Shown here: in pieces, positions 17,985-24,702 of the stretch
Layout: each line of letters starts with the position of its first letter
How positions within the stretch are numbered: the first letter of the stretch is position 1
Program-made: the position numbers and the translations under genes
The notes under the pieces: model-generated
Database searches by the model: none
The model's input: the letters and a program-made list of their open reading frames with translations, nothing else
What the model was told of the DNA's origin: nothing
Origin: Bdellovibrionales bacterium
GTDB lineage: Bacteria; Bdellovibrionota; Bdellovibrionia; Bdellovibrionales; UBA1609
Assembly (NCBI GenBank): GCA_019695175.1
Contig: JAIBAM010000007.1
Span: forward strand, 1 to 64,000
Direction: 5' to 3'
DNA: 64,000 nucleotides

Positions 17985-18276
17985 AGAACATATAAATTTA
18001 AATATCTTATGGTTTTTAGGGCACGGTTCGGAGGGGTTGTACCGGCTACGATCCTTTGAAATGACTTTTGCATAAGAACTTTAAAGACAATAAAGACAAT
18101 TTCGATTCGTTTTCAATTAAAGAATTTTTTTGCAATTCCTAGACAATATATCTGGATCCTCTTATCTACCTTTGTAAGACATTGCAAATTTAATTGGGGC
18201 TTGCTTTGAGATGTTGCGTCCATGTGGGACAGTCTCTCTTACAAGAAGTTCTTAAACATAAGTGGGGATAGATATT
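17985..18276. other. intergenic region before the flavin cluster
   Basis: About 290 bases, AT-rich, with a short direct repeat TAAAGACAA at about 18081-18099. I see no gene and no promoter that I would defend. Confidence 0.3.
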
Positions 18277-19173
18277 ATGAAGCTGTTTTCTATGATTTTG
18301 TGCGGACTATTAGGGGGATTTGATGTTTATGCCAGCGAGGGAATGTTTGGATATTTGTATACCGCGGAAACAACTCCAGCAAACACTTGGGAATATGAAC
18401 AAATGCAAACTTGGCGACATGCAAAAGCCCGAGGCAGTTATGATTCATTGGATTTACGAAATGAAATTGAATATGGAATCACTGACAAATTACAAACAGC
18501 TCTTTATCTAAATAGTTCGTACTTGAGAGGAAAACGTCTTTATGATCCAGAAGACGTGTCCCAAGATTTATCTAATCGAAATGAATTTGCAGTCAATGGT
18601 GTTTCGGTGGAATTTTTGTATCGTTTGCTAAGTCCCTATAAAGATGGATTTGGGTTGGCTCTTTACGCAGAACCAGAAATTTCACTTCGGGATCGAATTA
18701 CGGGTGAGGATAGTATTGAGCGAGCTGTAGAGACTCGACTTATTTTACAGAAGAATTTTTGGGGTGACACTTTGTTGACTGTAGCAAATTTGATGTTGGA
18801 GCCCGAGTGGGAAAAAGAAGACGGAATGACAGTGCAAGAGCTTTGGGCTGAATGGACCCTGGGTGCCAGTTATCGAATAAAATCCAATTGGTTTGCAGGG
18901 CTTGAGTTTAGAAATCATATGGAATTTCCTGATATGAATTTGAATAAGCGCGAACACTCGGCGTATTTTTTTGGACCTACTGTTCACTATGCTAATGAAC
19001 ATTATTGGTGGACTATTACAGTATTGCCTCAAGTGGGAGGAACTCCTAGACACTTAGGGATAGGTTCTGATGGACATGATATTTCTAGCTCCTACGCTCA
19101 CTTGGGTCAACATGAGGCCATGGAAGTTCGGTTTAAGTTTGGAATTCCCTTGGGAAGTGAACATAAACATTAA
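18277..19173 (+). CDS. outer-membrane barrel-like protein, first gene of the flavin cluster
   Basis: 298 residues from the ATG at 18277; an in-frame GTG at 18262 is less likely because the GTGGGGAT ribosome site overlaps it. A signal peptide (MKLFSMILCGLLGG...YAS) is followed by many alternating aromatic strands (TWEYEQMQTWRHAKA, WWTITVLPQVGG) and a C-terminal strand MEVRFKFGIPLG, typical of an outer-membrane barrel. It ends in a His-rich tail (GSEHKH). I do not recognise a characterised homologue; barrels of this sort are sometimes encoded beside ApbE/FMN-binding genes. The context suggests a role in periplasmic or surface electron transfer, which is inference. Confidence 0.65.
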   Translation: MKLFSMILCGLLGGFDVYASEGMFGYLYTAETTPANTWEYEQMQTWRHAKARGSYDSLDLRNEIEYGITDKLQTALYLNSSYLRGKRLYDPEDVSQDLSNRNEFAVNGVSVEFLYRLLSPYKDGFGLALYAEPEISLRDRITGEDSIERAVETRLILQKNFWGDTLLTVANLMLEPEWEKEDGMTVQELWAEWTLGASYRIKSNWFAGLEFRNHMEFPDMNLNKREHSAYFFGPTVHYANEHYWWTITVLPQVGGTPRHLGIGSDGHDISSSYAHLGQHEAMEVRFKFGIPLGSEHKH

Positions 19174-19290
19174 TTTTTTATAAGAACCTGTTCGGCAAAT
19201 AAATCCGAATAGATTGTTAAAGTGCCTTAGATGGTAATCGTTGGATCTGCTTTATGGGTCGGTCCAGTTCGAAGCAAGGAGATAAATTTT

Positions 19291-19827
19291 ATGAATTTGA
19301 ATCGCTTGGGACTTTTACTTGGACCGACAGTGGCTCTCTGTGCCCATAGCGAGGTTTATATGACTGAGGATCAGGCGGTCCAAGTGCTTTTTCCAAGTCA
19401 TTCAGGACCCCGAGCCAAACTAAAGAAAAAGGCGTTTTCTCTGAGTAAGGAGGAGGCTAAAAAAATTGAAAAGCTTTCTGGAGAAACAGTTAGGTCTCAT
19501 GCATTAACTCTTTGGAAGAGCGATCAGAATAATGTGGTCTATATTGATCAGGTTTTAGGTAAACATGAAATGATTACTTATGCTATTGGGATTGATGAAA
19601 AAGATCAAGTAGTTGGAGTGGAGATTATAGAATATAGAGAATCTTATGGTCATCAGATTCGAAGGCCTGAATGGAGAAAACAATTTATTGGAAAAAATAA
19701 AGATTCGGAATTAAAGTTGGATAAGGATATCACAAATATAAGCGGAGCCACCTTGTCTTCAGCTCATATTACGGCAGGGGTAAAGAGAATTTTAAAAACC
19801 CATGATGAAATCAAAAAAAGAATTTAA
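19291..19827 (+). CDS. periplasmic FMN-binding domain protein (covalently flavinylated)
   Basis: 178 residues. The start at 19291 is chosen because AAGGAG lies 9 bases upstream and because the protein then begins with a short signal peptide; an upstream frame to 19231 has no ribosome site. The FMN-binding domain occupies about residues 75-170 and ends with the flavinylation motif SGATLSS, in which a Thr or Ser is the usual site of FMN attachment by ApbE. The preceding EWRKQFIGK segment is also typical of the family. The apbE gene overlaps its end by 26 bases, so modifier and substrate are made together. It probably carries electrons in the periplasm. Confidence 0.85.
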   Translation: MNLNRLGLLLGPTVALCAHSEVYMTEDQAVQVLFPSHSGPRAKLKKKAFSLSKEEAKKIEKLSGETVRSHALTLWKSDQNNVVYIDQVLGKHEMITYAIGIDEKDQVVGVEIIEYRESYGHQIRRPEWRKQFIGKNKDSELKLDKDITNISGATLSSAHITAGVKRILKTHDEIKKRI

Positions 19828-20719
19828 TCGAGTTCGACCTCTCTTAGGAACGTTTTTTAAGATATCAGTTTTCACTGAATCCAAAGAAGAGTTCAATTTA
19901 GAGGATTTAAACTGTGTTTTTGAATACGCAAAAAAAATGGAGGAAGTTTTTTCGCTTTTTTCAAAAAAATCGGAATTGGTTTTATTCAATGAGGTCGACC
20001 TTAATCAAAGGATTTCAGTTTCTGCAGAAGTCTATTTTCTTTTAGAAAAGGCTTTATCCCTTTGGCAAAAAACCAAGGGAGCTTTTTTTCCGTTTCAAAA
20101 AAATTCTTCTCCACTTGGTTTTGATTCGTTTCAAAGGGGGGAAGTCCGCACTCAAAAGAGTTCTTTCTGTAGACATCCTTTTAAGTTTGAAAAAATAAAT
20201 AATAATTATTTTGTAATAAAAAAAACACCTGCACTTATGGATCTTAATGGCATTGCCAAAGGTTATATTGTAGATCAATGTGTCGTTTTGCTGCAAAAAT
20301 GTCTGACCAATGGAATCATCGGTGGTTGTGTTAATGCCGGGGGTGATCTAAAGTTTTTTGGTCAGGGAAGTCGTCAGATCAACCTGAAGTTAGGCTCTCG
20401 TTATCAAATTATAAATCGGACTTTGATTTCACCTAGAGACGCAGTAGCGACGTCTTCCCTTTCGGTTTCTTTGACAGAGCCTCTTTCTCAAACAATTTAT
20501 CCTCTTCAACTTAGAAGTCCATTGACCTCAAATGGAACGGTTGTGGTTTTAGCGGATCAATGCTACCAGGCAGATGCGGGGACCAAAGTGGTTCTTTTTG
20601 GTGAAAGACCGGAAATTGAGCAATATTGTGGAGATGAATGTGTGATCGCTTTGGTTTTTGATGAGCGTGGTGAACTTATTGAGAGTTATGGTCATGCAGG
20701 AGTGAAGTGTGCGGTATAA
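19802..20719 (+). CDS. apbE: FAD:protein FMN transferase (ApbE)
   Basis: 305 residues. It should attach FMN through a phosphoester bond to the Thr/Ser in the SGAT motif of the upstream protein, using FAD and magnesium in the periplasm. The family motifs are MDLNGIAKGYIVD, GGCVNAGGDLKFFG and, near the C-terminus, ADAGTKVVLFG. The region that is usually HxxxP is weakly conserved (SQTIYPLQ). No clear signal peptide is visible at the N-terminus (MMKSKKEFNRVRPLLGTFFKI), which is unusual for ApbE and leaves its location open. It overlaps the FMN-binding gene by 26 bases and the following gene by 11. Confidence 0.85.
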   Translation: MMKSKKEFNRVRPLLGTFFKISVFTESKEEFNLEDLNCVFEYAKKMEEVFSLFSKKSELVLFNEVDLNQRISVSAEVYFLLEKALSLWQKTKGAFFPFQKNSSPLGFDSFQRGEVRTQKSSFCRHPFKFEKINNNYFVIKKTPALMDLNGIAKGYIVDQCVVLLQKCLTNGIIGGCVNAGGDLKFFGQGSRQINLKLGSRYQIINRTLISPRDAVATSSLSVSLTEPLSQTIYPLQLRSPLTSNGTVVVLADQCYQADAGTKVVLFGERPEIEQYCGDECVIALVFDERGELIESYGHAGVKCAV

Positions 20720-21251
20720 TAAAAAATTTAAGTGGATTTTTGCTGTCACTTGGCTTCTGATCTATGGACTTGGAATGGCCACTTGGATTTTAAGGGAATT
20801 TTTTAGCCAAGACCGGGGTTTTGGTCCGGAACCTTTGCCTCAAACCACAACTGTTTTGCACGTCCATGCGGTTGTAGGATTATGGTTCTTAATGTTATTC
20901 GGTTATCTTTATCATTTCCATGTCCAGCCCTCTTGGAAAGGTGGGACCTATCCTGCTAAAAGAGATTCTTTGTCGTCCTCTGAAAAAAATCTAATAAAAA
21001 ACTCCAAATCATTTTTTCGATTTACCAGATTAGAGTTTACCAGTTTAAGGGTTACGAGTGGAAACTTATTTTTCTGGAGTTGTTTGATTTTAATTCTAAC
21101 TGTACCAGGTTTGTTTTATTTTACTGAAGAGACTTTGCGGAAATACACCTCTATAGTTCATGTTTATGTTGGAATAGTTTCCATTTTACCCATTGTTTGC
21201 CATTGGTTTTTTAAAGCATTAAAGCCACGGTCACTTTTAAAGCAAAAGTGA
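20709..21251 (+). CDS. four-helix membrane protein with paired histidines (DUF4405/cytochrome b-like)
   Basis: 180 residues. Four predicted helices: WIFAVTWLLIYGLGMATW, the segment around LHVHAVVGLWFLMLFGYLYHFHV, the segment around FFWSCLILILTVPGLFYF, and the one around IVHVYVGIVSILPIVCHWFF. Histidines sit in helices 2 and 4 at positions that could coordinate b-type haem across the membrane. The GTG start has AGGAGTG upstream and overlaps apbE by 11 bases. In flavinylated electron-transfer systems such membrane proteins pass electrons across the inner membrane to FMN-binding domains, which is the likely role here. The haem assignment is inference from His placement. Confidence 0.6.
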   Translation: MRYNKKFKWIFAVTWLLIYGLGMATWILREFFSQDRGFGPEPLPQTTTVLHVHAVVGLWFLMLFGYLYHFHVQPSWKGGTYPAKRDSLSSSEKNLIKNSKSFFRFTRLEFTSLRVTSGNLFFWSCLILILTVPGLFYFTEETLRKYTSIVHVYVGIVSILPIVCHWFFKALKPRSLLKQK

Positions 21252-21277
21252 AGAAATATTGCCAGCCTTAAGGAATC

Positions 21278-22189
21278 TTGATAGCAATTGGCCTTATGGA
21301 AAAAATATCCTCTCTAACCTTTAGTAAGTTATCTGCCGCTCGAAATGATTTTCTTATAGTGGATCTGACAGAGGACAAGTTCCTTTTAGCATGGCATCAT
21401 GAGTTGGGGAAATGGTCTCGATTGGAAATTGCAAAAAAGTTGTGTGATCGGACGGGGGGAATTGGAGCTGATGGATTATTATTGGTAACTTCGGGGGGTG
21501 ATTCTTTTGATTATGAGTGGGATTTTTATAACAGTGATGGTTCTCAGGCTGAGATGTGTGGAAACTTAGCTCGTTGTGCCCATTTATGGGCCCGTGCTAA
21601 GAAACCCCAGGCTTCTTCATTTGTATTTTCAACTCCTGCAGGACGTATAAGTACAAGGGAAGTCGAAGATCATTTGATCTGCGTTGATATGCCCCCTGTG
21701 ATCATTAAAGATCTTAAAAAAGAGATCAGCTTGGATAGTGGGGTTGCGGTTTCTGTGGCTGTGGTCAATACGGGTGTTCCTCACGCAGTTGTAGTGGTTT
21801 CCTCCTTGAATCTCAACGAACTTAAACCACTGGCATTAAAAATAAGAAGACATGGATTTTTTTCGCCCCAAGGAACAAATGTCACTTTTGTCGTGCAAAA
21901 GAATGCTTCAACGGATGCAAAGAGTCTTTCGTTAACGGTTCCAGAAATGGATGTAGTGACCTTTGAACGTGGGGTGGAAGACTTTACTCAGGCTTGTGGC
22001 ACTGGGGCTGTTGCCGCAGGTTTATGGAGCTTTAAACACTCAGGGGCTGCAAAAACAATCATTCATATGCCTGGAGGGGATTTACAGACTTTGTTTGACG
22101 AATCAGGACATGCTTGTTTGATAGGTCCGGCTTATTGGGTGGCAGATTGCCAGATTCATTTACACTCTAAAGGAGTACTGTTTTCATGA
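21278..22189 (+). CDS. dapF: diaminopimelate epimerase-like protein
   Basis: 303 residues. It should convert LL- to meso-diaminopimelate for peptidoglycan and lysine using two cysteines and no cofactor. Both are present: Cys in EMCGNLARC and Cys in ACGTGAVA; GGIGADGLL is also typical. Two usually invariant spots differ: the N-terminal HGxGNDF motif reads SAARNDF, and the CGNGxR loop reads CGNLAR. The best start is TTG at 21278 with AAGGAA just upstream; an ATG at 21296 has no ribosome site. The stop overlaps the next gene (ATGA). It may be a diverged but active epimerase; a different substrate within the PLP-independent epimerase fold is possible. Confidence 0.8.
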   Translation: MIAIGLMEKISSLTFSKLSAARNDFLIVDLTEDKFLLAWHHELGKWSRLEIAKKLCDRTGGIGADGLLLVTSGGDSFDYEWDFYNSDGSQAEMCGNLARCAHLWARAKKPQASSFVFSTPAGRISTREVEDHLICVDMPPVIIKDLKKEISLDSGVAVSVAVVNTGVPHAVVVVSSLNLNELKPLALKIRRHGFFSPQGTNVTFVVQKNASTDAKSLSLTVPEMDVVTFERGVEDFTQACGTGAVAAGLWSFKHSGAAKTIIHMPGGDLQTLFDESGHACLIGPAYWVADCQIHLHSKGVLFS

Positions 22190-23358
22190 ATTACGATTTA
22201 AATCGATTGACCTTTCCGTTGTCAATTTCTAAGAGATTTTTAGAAACAAGCGATGCTGTTTCTTTAACCCTTCAAGTCCCTGATGAACATAAAAACAAAT
22301 TTCGTTTTTTACCGGGACAGTTTGTGACTTTATTTTTGGATGTGGATGGAGAGGTTTTGCCTCGTAGTTATTCTATTGCTTCCTCGCCTCTGGTCGATAA
22401 GGAACTTAAAATCACGATTAAAAAAGTGATAAACGGAAAAGGTTCTAACTATATTTTCAATCATTTGAAAGAGGGACATTCGATTCGAGTTTCACCGCCT
22501 TCTGGTCATTTTTATCATCCTCAATTGGAGAACGTACCAACTCACTATGTTTTATTTGCTGGGGGAAGCGGGATCACACCCTTATTTTCCATTTTGAAGA
22601 CCGTTTTAATGTCCGAACCGGAGGCCGTGGTTTCTCTAGTTTATGCCAATAAAAACTCATTAAATATTATTTATAAAAGTGAATTGATTGAATGGGAAAA
22701 TAAATTCCCCTCTCGATTTAAAATTCATCATGTTTTTTCAAAGCCCAACGAAGGCGACTTAGGACATAAAGGTCGTTGTGAGGGCTTTTTACTGCAACAG
22801 CTATGGATGGAGGTTAAGAAGACCCCTTTTTTGACCTCATCAGGCCCGATTCAATTTGAATTTTATCTTTGTGGCCCTGATGGATTTATGGAAAATATTC
22901 ATGAGGAATTAAAAAGGCAAGGGTGCAGCGAAGCTCAAATTCACCGGGAAAGTTTTACCACAACGGTTGTAAAAACCGAATCGATGGATCCCTTAGTCAG
23001 TTCCAGTGAAGGTCAAGAAGTTTCAGACGATGAAAATAGTGTTTTGATTGGTGACACTTCAGCTGGACGGGTCAAAGGTCCCCATCAGTTAACTGTGACT
23101 TTAGGCGGTGAGATTCTCAATCTATCAGTCAATGAAAATCAAACCGTTCTTGAGGCGTTGATTGAGGCCGAGGCCAACCCACCTTACTCTTGTTTGGAGG
23201 GGAACTGTATGGCTTGTGTGGGGCGAGTGTTGGAAGGTCGGGTTTTTCAAAAAGAACCAGGAATTCTTCTGGATGAAAATATTGCGGCTGGCGAAGCCTT
23301 AACCTGCAAAGCCTTTCCCTATTCAAAATTCGTTCATATTGATTATGATTCAGTATAA
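22186..23358 (+). CDS. NAD(P)H:ferredoxin-type oxidoreductase with FAD, NAD and 2Fe-2S domains (PaaE/KshB-like)
   Basis: 390 residues. An N-terminal FAD-binding barrel has the motif LPRSYSIAS, followed by an NAD(P)-binding Rossmann domain (VLFAGGSGITPLFSIL ... FYLCGPDGFM). After an acidic linker (about 265-300) comes a C-terminal plant-type 2Fe-2S domain with four cysteines (PYSCLEGNCMACVGRV ... ALTCKAFP). This layout is that of the reductase components of phenylacetyl-CoA epoxidase and Rieske oxygenases. No oxygenase subunit is encoded nearby, so the electron acceptor is unknown. The 4-base overlap with dapF and the closeness to the flavin cluster raise the possibility that it feeds electrons to the membrane protein. 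Confidence 0.88.
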   Translation: MNYDLNRLTFPLSISKRFLETSDAVSLTLQVPDEHKNKFRFLPGQFVTLFLDVDGEVLPRSYSIASSPLVDKELKITIKKVINGKGSNYIFNHLKEGHSIRVSPPSGHFYHPQLENVPTHYVLFAGGSGITPLFSILKTVLMSEPEAVVSLVYANKNSLNIIYKSELIEWENKFPSRFKIHHVFSKPNEGDLGHKGRCEGFLLQQLWMEVKKTPFLTSSGPIQFEFYLCGPDGFMENIHEELKRQGCSEAQIHRESFTTTVVKTESMDPLVSSSEGQEVSDDENSVLIGDTSAGRVKGPHQLTVTLGGEILNLSVNENQTVLEALIEAEANPPYSCLEGNCMACVGRVLEGRVFQKEPGILLDENIAAGEALTCKAFPYSKFVHIDYDSV

Positions 23359-23574: not shown

Positions 23575-24702
23575 ATGAAGTTTTTTAAAGTTTCAAAATT
23601 GAAACTAATATTTGTTTTTTTTTGCGGTTGCATTGGCTATTTAGATTTGGTCTCGGCCTCTAAAACCAGTTTCAATTTGTCCCATCCTTTAGGATGGATG
23701 CATCTGTTACCTGTAGGTGAAACACCCGGTTGGCGAGGGGACATTTGGTTTAATTTTGAATTGAGTGAGTCCAATGTTTGGAACAATAAATTTAGCGCAA
23801 CAAACTTAAGTACGGGAAAAACCCTTTCTTATAAATCTGATTTTGAACAAAGTTCGGCCATCCTAGATTTTGGCTTTCCTTTAGCGGAAAGGTGGTCCTT
23901 TGGTTCCACCCTTGCTTATGCTGGTCGAAGTGGAGGTGTGCTCGATGATTTTATAGATCATTTCCATGTGCTTATTGGAAGTGAAAGATTCCTTCGTAAT
24001 ACGAATAGTTCTTATGGAAATTCTCTTAGTGTTGAAACTGGAAACGTCAATAAAGTGACCAACCCTAGTTGGTATGCCGTGGGAAATTTAAAATTTAAGT
24101 TAAAATACTGGATGATCAAATGGATAGGGTCCTTAAACGGGTCGTGTGATTGTGGTGTGGCATTAAGTGCACAAATAAAAGTGCCATTGGCTCAACCTTC
24201 CAGTGGGTGGACTTCCGGGCATAATGACTACAGTGTATTACTGCATTTAGGGGCTCCAGTGGGGGAAGCGTCTGGAATATGGTTTACGGCTGGAATTACC
24301 AACCTTGGAAAAAATGAATTGATGCAAGATTGGCCAATGAACTCATGGTCACAAATGTATGAACTATCCATGGATTTGGCATTTACTGATCGTTGGGGGG
24401 TGATCCTTCAGGCTCGTGCTGAGTCTCCATTTATGGATCGAAAGCAACTAGAAATTATTTATCCATCCAATTACACCGGAAATCTTACGGCCTATCGAGT
24501 TTCTACCGGTTGGAATTCCCTGGTTTTGTGGCGTGGGAGTGAGTCTATCGGATTTCGTTGGCGCGGTTTGACGGGTCAACAAATTAGTTTTTTAATTGTA
24601 GAGGATTGGGGTCTTGGAAATCAGGACAGTCTTTCGGATCGTCGATATACCAACAACGCTCCTGATGTAAGTTTTCTGACCCAAGTTTATTTTGGATATT
24701 AG
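23575..24702 (+). CDS. DUF3187-like outer-membrane protein
   Basis: 375 residues. A signal peptide (KLKLIFVFFCGCIGYLDLVSA) precedes a barrel-type sequence rich in aromatic strands. The segment GGVLDDFIDHFHVLIGS matches the central motif I associate with DUF3187, a family of uncharacterised outer-membrane proteins of about 350 residues. The C-terminus ends FLTQVYFGY, a plausible last strand with a terminal aromatic residue. There is no clear ribosome site before the ATG. Function unknown. Confidence 0.7.
   Translation: MKFFKVSKLKLIFVFFCGCIGYLDLVSASKTSFNLSHPLGWMHLLPVGETPGWRGDIWFNFELSESNVWNNKFSATNLSTGKTLSYKSDFEQSSAILDFGFPLAERWSFGSTLAYAGRSGGVLDDFIDHFHVLIGSERFLRNTNSSYGNSLSVETGNVNKVTNPSWYAVGNLKFKLKYWMIKWIGSLNGSCDCGVALSAQIKVPLAQPSSGWTSGHNDYSVLLHLGAPVGEASGIWFTAGITNLGKNELMQDWPMNSWSQMYELSMDLAFTDRWGVILQARAESPFMDRKQLEIIYPSNYTGNLTAYRVSTGWNSLVLWRGSESIGFRWRGLTGQQISFLIVEDWGLGNQDSLSDRRYTNNAPDVSFLTQVYFGY

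Follow-up and report, generated by a model that had tools for sequence, protein, structure and literature searches.

A conserved four-gene unit in a Bdellovibrionales genome combines a putative flavinylation substrate and its ApbE with a predicted di-haem membrane cytochrome and a DUF6662 outer-membrane barrel

Extracytosolic electron-transfer systems flavinylated by ApbE have been surveyed twice (Meheust 2021, PMC8238504; Huang 2024, PMC11334425), with a catalogue of the transmembrane partners known to date. Among the closest described systems are the PepSY/DUF2271/DUF4198/ApbE clusters (Meheust 2021), which combine ApbE with an extracytosolic substrate for flavinylation and a membrane protein with haem; they are Fur-regulated and have been implicated in periplasmic ferric reduction. 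In Caulobacter, such a cluster (CCNA_03155-03159) is controlled by Fur, and insertions in it lead to sensitivity to ethylenediaminetetraacetic acid (PMC3751524, PMC12004947). Further, DUF4405 cytochromes such as FezC are membrane cytochromes with four conserved histidines encoded beside apbE (Huang 2024). Here we describe a locus at positions 18277-21251 of a 64,000-nucleotide stretch (contig JAIBAM010000007.1; hereinafter referred to as the window) from a Bdellovibrionales bacterium, which encodes a DUF6662 outer-membrane beta-barrel, a protein with a flavin mononucleotide (FMN)-binding domain (FMN_bind), an ApbE-type transferase, and a four-helix membrane protein predicted to be a cytochrome. 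The locus falls among the ApbE-flavinylated electron-transfer systems, and its set of partners (DUF6662, four-helix cytochrome, ApbE without a signal peptide, and, in relatives, a Fur box) is apparently undescribed: the main texts of both surveys contained neither "barrel" nor "b561" and did not name DUF6662, and literature searches did not find the set either, although such clusters may be listed unnamed in the supplementary tables of the surveys.

Scanning 84,980 species genomes with an alignment of FMN_bind proteins turned up 286 related stretches. The 80 best of these were compared, together with two plasmid loci, using gene profiles built from the window family. The order barrel, FMN_bind, ApbE, and four-helix protein on a single strand was complete in 70 of these 82 loci. 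The remaining 12 comprised three loci cut at contig ends, two with a divergent barrel, five without DUF6662, and two without ApbE. Although the loci were selected by FMN_bind similarity, the conservation of the neighbours does not depend on that selection. Co-occurrence of the four genes was far above chance, and 18277-21251 is a true four-gene unit. In addition, pairwise distances among FMN_bind, ApbE, and the cytochrome were correlated (Mantel r about 0.8), as were, at about 0.5, those of the three proteins with the barrel, compared with at most 0.18 in permutations. The initial annotation of this DNA had proposed a cluster for extracytoplasmic flavin electron transfer, made up of a dedicated barrel, an FMN-binding protein, ApbE, a His-rich four-helix membrane protein and a reductase. 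The analysis supported the first four as a flavinylation module with a strongly conserved neighbourhood, the four-helix protein being of predicted di-haem type, and did not support the reductase as a member.

The same gene order was first met by protein search in plasmids of Sphingomonas parapaucimobilis and Novosphingobium and in one genome of the same family as the window. The loci were distributed over at least seven phyla, with taxa labelled in the sequence records as Bdellovibrionota/Oligoflexia, alpha-, beta-, and gammaproteobacteria, Acidobacteria, Verrucomicrobia, Elusimicrobia, Omnitrophota, and Chlamydiae; several records are metagenome bins, so that individual assignments could be mistaken. 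Within the phylum of the window the operon was patchy, with DUF6662 in 8 of 192 genomes. This patchiness and the plasmid copies suggest that the operon spread by horizontal transfer. In L038 and L062, the barrel and FMN_bind genes were present and an adjacent ApbE gene was absent; L062 also lacked the cytochrome gene.

Open reading frame calls and Pfam matches recovered the five genes of the initial annotation and dapF at or near their annotated coordinates (Table 1). Its description of a run of overlapping genes held for FMN_bind, ApbE, and the four-helix protein, with overlaps of 26 bp and 11 bp, and failed for the barrel gene, which lay 117 bp from FMN_bind; the only other overlap was one of 4 bp between dapF and the reductase gene. 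A scan for promoters and terminators yielded nothing that exceeded shuffled sequence.

Table 1. Coordinates of the features at the window locus, and of the second outer-membrane family at other loci (locus:positions).
Feature	Coordinates	Strand	Match or remark
DUF6662 outer-membrane beta-barrel	18277..19173	+	PF20367, E 5.7e-16
FMN_bind protein, NISGATLSS	19291..19827	+	PF04205, E 2.8e-12
ApbE-type flavin adenine dinucleotide (FAD):protein FMN transferase	19802..20719	+	PF02424, E 7.4e-25
Four-helix membrane protein, predicted di-haem b561-type cytochrome	20709..21251	+	no Pfam match
dapF (diaminopimelate epimerase)	about 21278..22189	+	PF01678, 1.9e-34; start possibly 21296; neighbour, outside the system
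FAD/nicotinamide adenine dinucleotide (NAD)/2Fe-2S reductase	22186..23358	+	FAD_binding_6, NAD_binding_1, Fer2; dapF partner, outside the system
Second outer-membrane family	L078:4990-6348; L050:8950-10272; L156:4164-5801; L157:4616-5938; L158:4246-5811; L074; L085; L066		

The locus differed from the PepSY/DUF2271 clusters in that the substrate was of the FMN_bind type, the membrane protein was a four-helix, b561-like one, a DUF6662 barrel was part of the operon, and ApbE carried no signal; a Pfam scan of the window genes found neither a PepSY-like membrane protein nor a DUF2271 substrate. The traits that define ApbE-flavinylated extracytosolic systems were found, namely ApbE beside FMN_bind, the [S/T]GA[S/T] motif, and an export signal on the substrate, whereas a secreted or lipidated ApbE, a usual though not universal trait of flavinylation systems, was lacking.

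The start of the FMN_bind protein was best placed at 19291, with an AAGGAG ribosome site just upstream and in agreement with the N-terminal alignment of relatives. A hydrophobicity heuristic and the alignment identified MNLNRLGLLLGPTVALCAHS as its Sec-type signal sequence, and by the same kind of heuristic its counterparts across the loci had Sec-like signal sequences. The putative flavinylation site lay within SGATLSS at about 19741-19761, and this motif was kept across 76 FMN_bind sequences as SGATLS, TGATLS, or SGGTLS. The window FMN_bind and ApbE were each the sole member of their family in the genome. The N-terminus of the window ApbE (MMKSKKEFNRV-RPLLGT) contained no signal peptide, and 19802 was the most upstream start possible, no earlier start codon being available. 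Among the 73 operon ApbEs in which RPxLGT was found, usually 3-20 hydrophilic residues preceded the motif, and a hydrophobic stretch was present in just two even when the longest frame was taken. In contrast, 29 of 30 control ApbEs, the best Pfam matches from the same phylum outside the operon, had a hydrophobic N-terminus, with a lipobox-like Cys in 25; the remaining one was Tat-like.

According to a review, most ApbEs are secreted, and the substrate of the known cytosolic one, from Klebsiella, is a soluble fumarate reductase of the cytosol (PMC12052999). The operon ApbE resembles the latter in having no signal peptide and differs from it in that its substrate is exported. Because ApbE is without a signal peptide while its substrate is exported, flavinylation may precede Sec export. 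We give FMN attachment ahead of export close to, and at best, an even chance; alternatively, the signal-less ApbE may get into the periplasm some other way. The pipeline of the 2021 survey discarded ApbEs without a signal peptide (PMC8238504), and literature searches for a cytoplasmic ApbE and for ApbE with a Fur box and FMN-binding found nothing.

In the four-helix protein, H53 and H71 (helix 2) and H151 and H165 (helix 4) were 99-100% conserved across 81 otherwise diverse sequences, in which G22, G65, G118, and G155 were likewise invariant. Cytochrome b561 (PF01292) was matched by 28 of 79 family members with E values no higher than 0.01 (lowest, 1.2e-7), and DUF4405 (PF14358) was matched weakly by 26 of 79 (best 7.5e-6). 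An AlphaFold 2 model had four membrane helices with a mean predicted local distance difference test (pLDDT) of 87.4; the alignments for the structure models left out plasmid-record sequences. VIA re-ranking gave HyaC (hydrogenase cytochrome b), FdnI (formate dehydrogenase cytochrome b), CybB, and cytochrome bc1 as nearest folds. Foldseek with the cytochrome model returned nothing that reached E 0.001, and a search for solved structures related by sequence returned none. Judging from helix order, the pairs H53/H151 and H71/H165 would lie on opposite sides, an arrangement known from di-haem cytochromes b; positively charged residues at the N-terminus and in the loop joining helices 2 and 3 would put the former pair at the periplasm. 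The protein is a predicted b561-type di-haem cytochrome. It shares with prokaryotic b561 proteins (HyaC, CybB; PF01292) the predicted four-helix di-haem arrangement with His pairs in two helices, but sequence identity was very low and its gene is linked to a flavinylation operon. DUF4405 cytochromes are described as six-helix proteins, whereas here a single chain with four predicted membrane helices holds all four His; the window member had no significant match to DUF4405.

The barrel protein scored 59.3 bits with the DUF6662 profile (cut-off, 27). Its signal peptide is followed by a conserved stretch near the N-terminus (ASEGMFGYLYTAETTP) and by 12 strands. Its AlphaFold 2 model (pLDDT 92.6) had 12 long strands, and the nearest folds by VIA were FapF (Z 21.9) and a COG4313 channel (Z 21.7). 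The likeness to these channels was in the 12-stranded fold; no sequence relation was detected, and the genetic context was different. A search for solved structures related by sequence found nothing credible, and the literature search for DUF6662 found no paper. A flavinylated barrel, as in DUF3570, was considered and rejected: [ST]GA[ST] was present in 1 of 76 family barrels and absent from the window barrel. A tandem pair of DUF6662 genes headed the operon in L024, L028, L036, L037, and L052. Solo DUF6662 barrels, with the flavin genes absent, were found at L104:7951-8784, L106:5979-6812, and L109:1508-2401; one of them adjoined a Fur-family-like gene, and one had a Fur-like box (TGAGAGTCATTCTCA, 11/12).

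At some cores of FMN_bind, ApbE, and cytochrome genes, a second outer-membrane family replaced or accompanied DUF6662. It was seen in Bradyrhizobium, Ideonella, Methylocystis, and L078, and also in L050, L074, and L085. Its members have a coiled-coil-like stretch at the N-terminus and end in Phe, are unrelated to DUF6662, and gave no Pfam or NCBIfam match where tested. This distribution suggests that what the flavin core needs is some channel in the outer membrane, not specifically DUF6662. Genes for a multicopper oxidase and a ferritin-like protein were found beside the flavin core in Methylocystis (L158:7840-9521), and a cytochrome c peroxidase gene in Ideonella (L157:3357-4562).

For each operon, the 250 bp that precede its first gene were scored against a degenerate Fur consensus (TGMNAATNATTNKCA, 12 positions). 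A box of at least 11/12 was found for 25 of 87 operons (29%), compared with 5 of 570 control regions upstream of other genes in the same loci (0.9%; Fisher 3e-19, where exact p-values are somewhat optimistic because the consensus was chosen after a first scan with that of E. coli), and in 0.7% of shuffles. At a threshold of at least 10/12, the counts were 51 of 87 operons and 29 of 570 controls. A few of the 87 operons were the same or near-identical loci fetched twice; with one locus per FMN_bind cluster at 60% identity, the fractions were nearly unchanged (0.29 and 0.52). The perfect palindromes TGAGAATCATTCTCA and TGCGAATCATTCGCA occurred in several lineages, mostly 30-100 bp upstream. Two Acinetobacter loci have a divergent barrel, and in these the box sat between both arms. 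Further, Fur-family genes adjoined five loci and ferritin-family genes four, with Pfam matches for representatives. The source genome of the window carries three Fur-family genes.

We propose that the locus encodes a compact, typically iron-regulated electron-export module, which on balance is probably the best explanation of the whole. That it is an electron-transfer module is very likely, and a role of the operon in iron is likely. Reduction of ferric iron outside the cytoplasm is probable because many relatives' operons follow a Fur box, and a periplasmic path is proposed by analogy with the Fur-controlled Caulobacter PepSY/DUF2271/ApbE cluster. Reduced quinone, or a cytosolic donor encoded elsewhere, would deliver electrons to the four-helix di-haem cytochrome b, whose haems at H71/H165 near the cytoplasm and H53/H151 near the periplasm would relay them through the inner membrane. 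On the periplasmic side, the FMN_bind protein, carrying FMN on its SGAT threonine, would accept the electrons and reduce ferric iron, either as such or as a chelate, so that it can be taken up, and the DUF6662 barrel may be the matching outer-membrane channel or docking site. The signal-less ApbE would attach FMN in the cytoplasm ahead of Sec export of its substrate. Taken jointly, widespread undescribed Fur-controlled ferric reduction, pre-export flavinylation by a cytoplasmic ApbE, a minimal four-helix di-haem cytochrome, and a dedicated channel make a tentative reading that we hold somewhat short of even.

Several observations weigh against this proposal. Neither the window copy (9/12 at 18101) nor its nearest barrel relatives L008 and L011 had a recognisable Fur box, the matches of 9/12 and 8/12 being at chance level, and an upstream DNA alignment of the window with its nearest relatives contained no conserved box. 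A TonB receptor or iron transporter was sought as a constant neighbour across the loci and not found. The window four-helix protein matched no Pfam family; its fold match to CybB had Z 10.5, helical-bundle values below about 13 being weak evidence and the VIA ranking suggestive only. Moreover, Fur boxes and Fur or ferritin neighbours fit oxidative-stress roles too. The di-haem cytochrome could act like E. coli CybB, a superoxide oxidase and one of the nearest folds, or could feed a periplasmic peroxide or methionine-sulfoxide reductase by way of the FMN protein; Fur control would then reflect the overlap of iron and oxidative stress, and a cytochrome c peroxidase gene lies upstream at one plasmid locus. 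We consider such a module unlikely, since the operon has no constant periplasmic reductase partner, the role has no need for a dedicated outer-membrane channel, and the boxes match the Fur consensus.

A respiratory role in extracellular or dissimilatory electron transfer, in which the barrel would let the FMN protein or flavin shuttles hand electrons to solid metal or humic acceptors, is suggested by the outline of a porin-carrier arrangement that a barrel and a periplasmic carrier provide. MtrB-type conduits are larger than the 12-stranded barrel of about 300 residues, the operon encodes no multihaem or multiflavin protein, and Fur control suggests assimilation, all of which make this role very improbable.

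The reductase proved to belong elsewhere. It occurred in 29 of the 35 same-family genomes, and the genomes searched from other families of the order had none. Only one other of these family genomes was found with the operon, and the four-helix protein was found in only one other relative. In all nine relatives tested (L117-L125) dapF directly adjoined it, and a reductase relative was near the operon in just one other locus, in Acinetobacter on the opposite strand (E 1e-17). Because it pairs with dapF in 9/9 relatives and occurs in most family genomes without the operon, we place it outside the unit and reject it as a fifth member; dapF and the PaaE-like reductase are a conserved adjacent pair across the family. 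With TIGR02160 (PaaE) it scored 237 bits (2.3e-70), below the cut-off of 420.8. The remark in the initial annotation that no oxygenase accompanies it held genome-wide for the families searched, as no match to PaaA/PaaC (PF05138), Rieske, or FA_desaturase was found; the genome also appears to be without a classical cytochrome bc1 complex, since no Rieske-domain protein was found in it. A secreted, barrel-like DUF3187 protein (E 8e-8) is encoded downstream of the reductase at 23575-24702. The five-gene chain from NAD(P)H through a PaaE/KshB-like reductase, membrane haem, and periplasmic FMN to an outer-membrane partner, which the close, co-directional genes of the window and the lack of a PaaA/PaaC, Rieske, or FA_desaturase partner would favour, is the least probable explanation, because nearly all family genomes with the reductase are without the operon and the two adjoin in essentially no other lineage.

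If the proposed ferric reduction is true, a common route of iron acquisition would be added and DUF6662 would gain its first function. The signal-less ApbE also raises the question of whether covalent FMN can be attached ahead of Sec export, making a flavin exporter unnecessary; if so, the covalent flavin would cross the membrane on its carrier protein.

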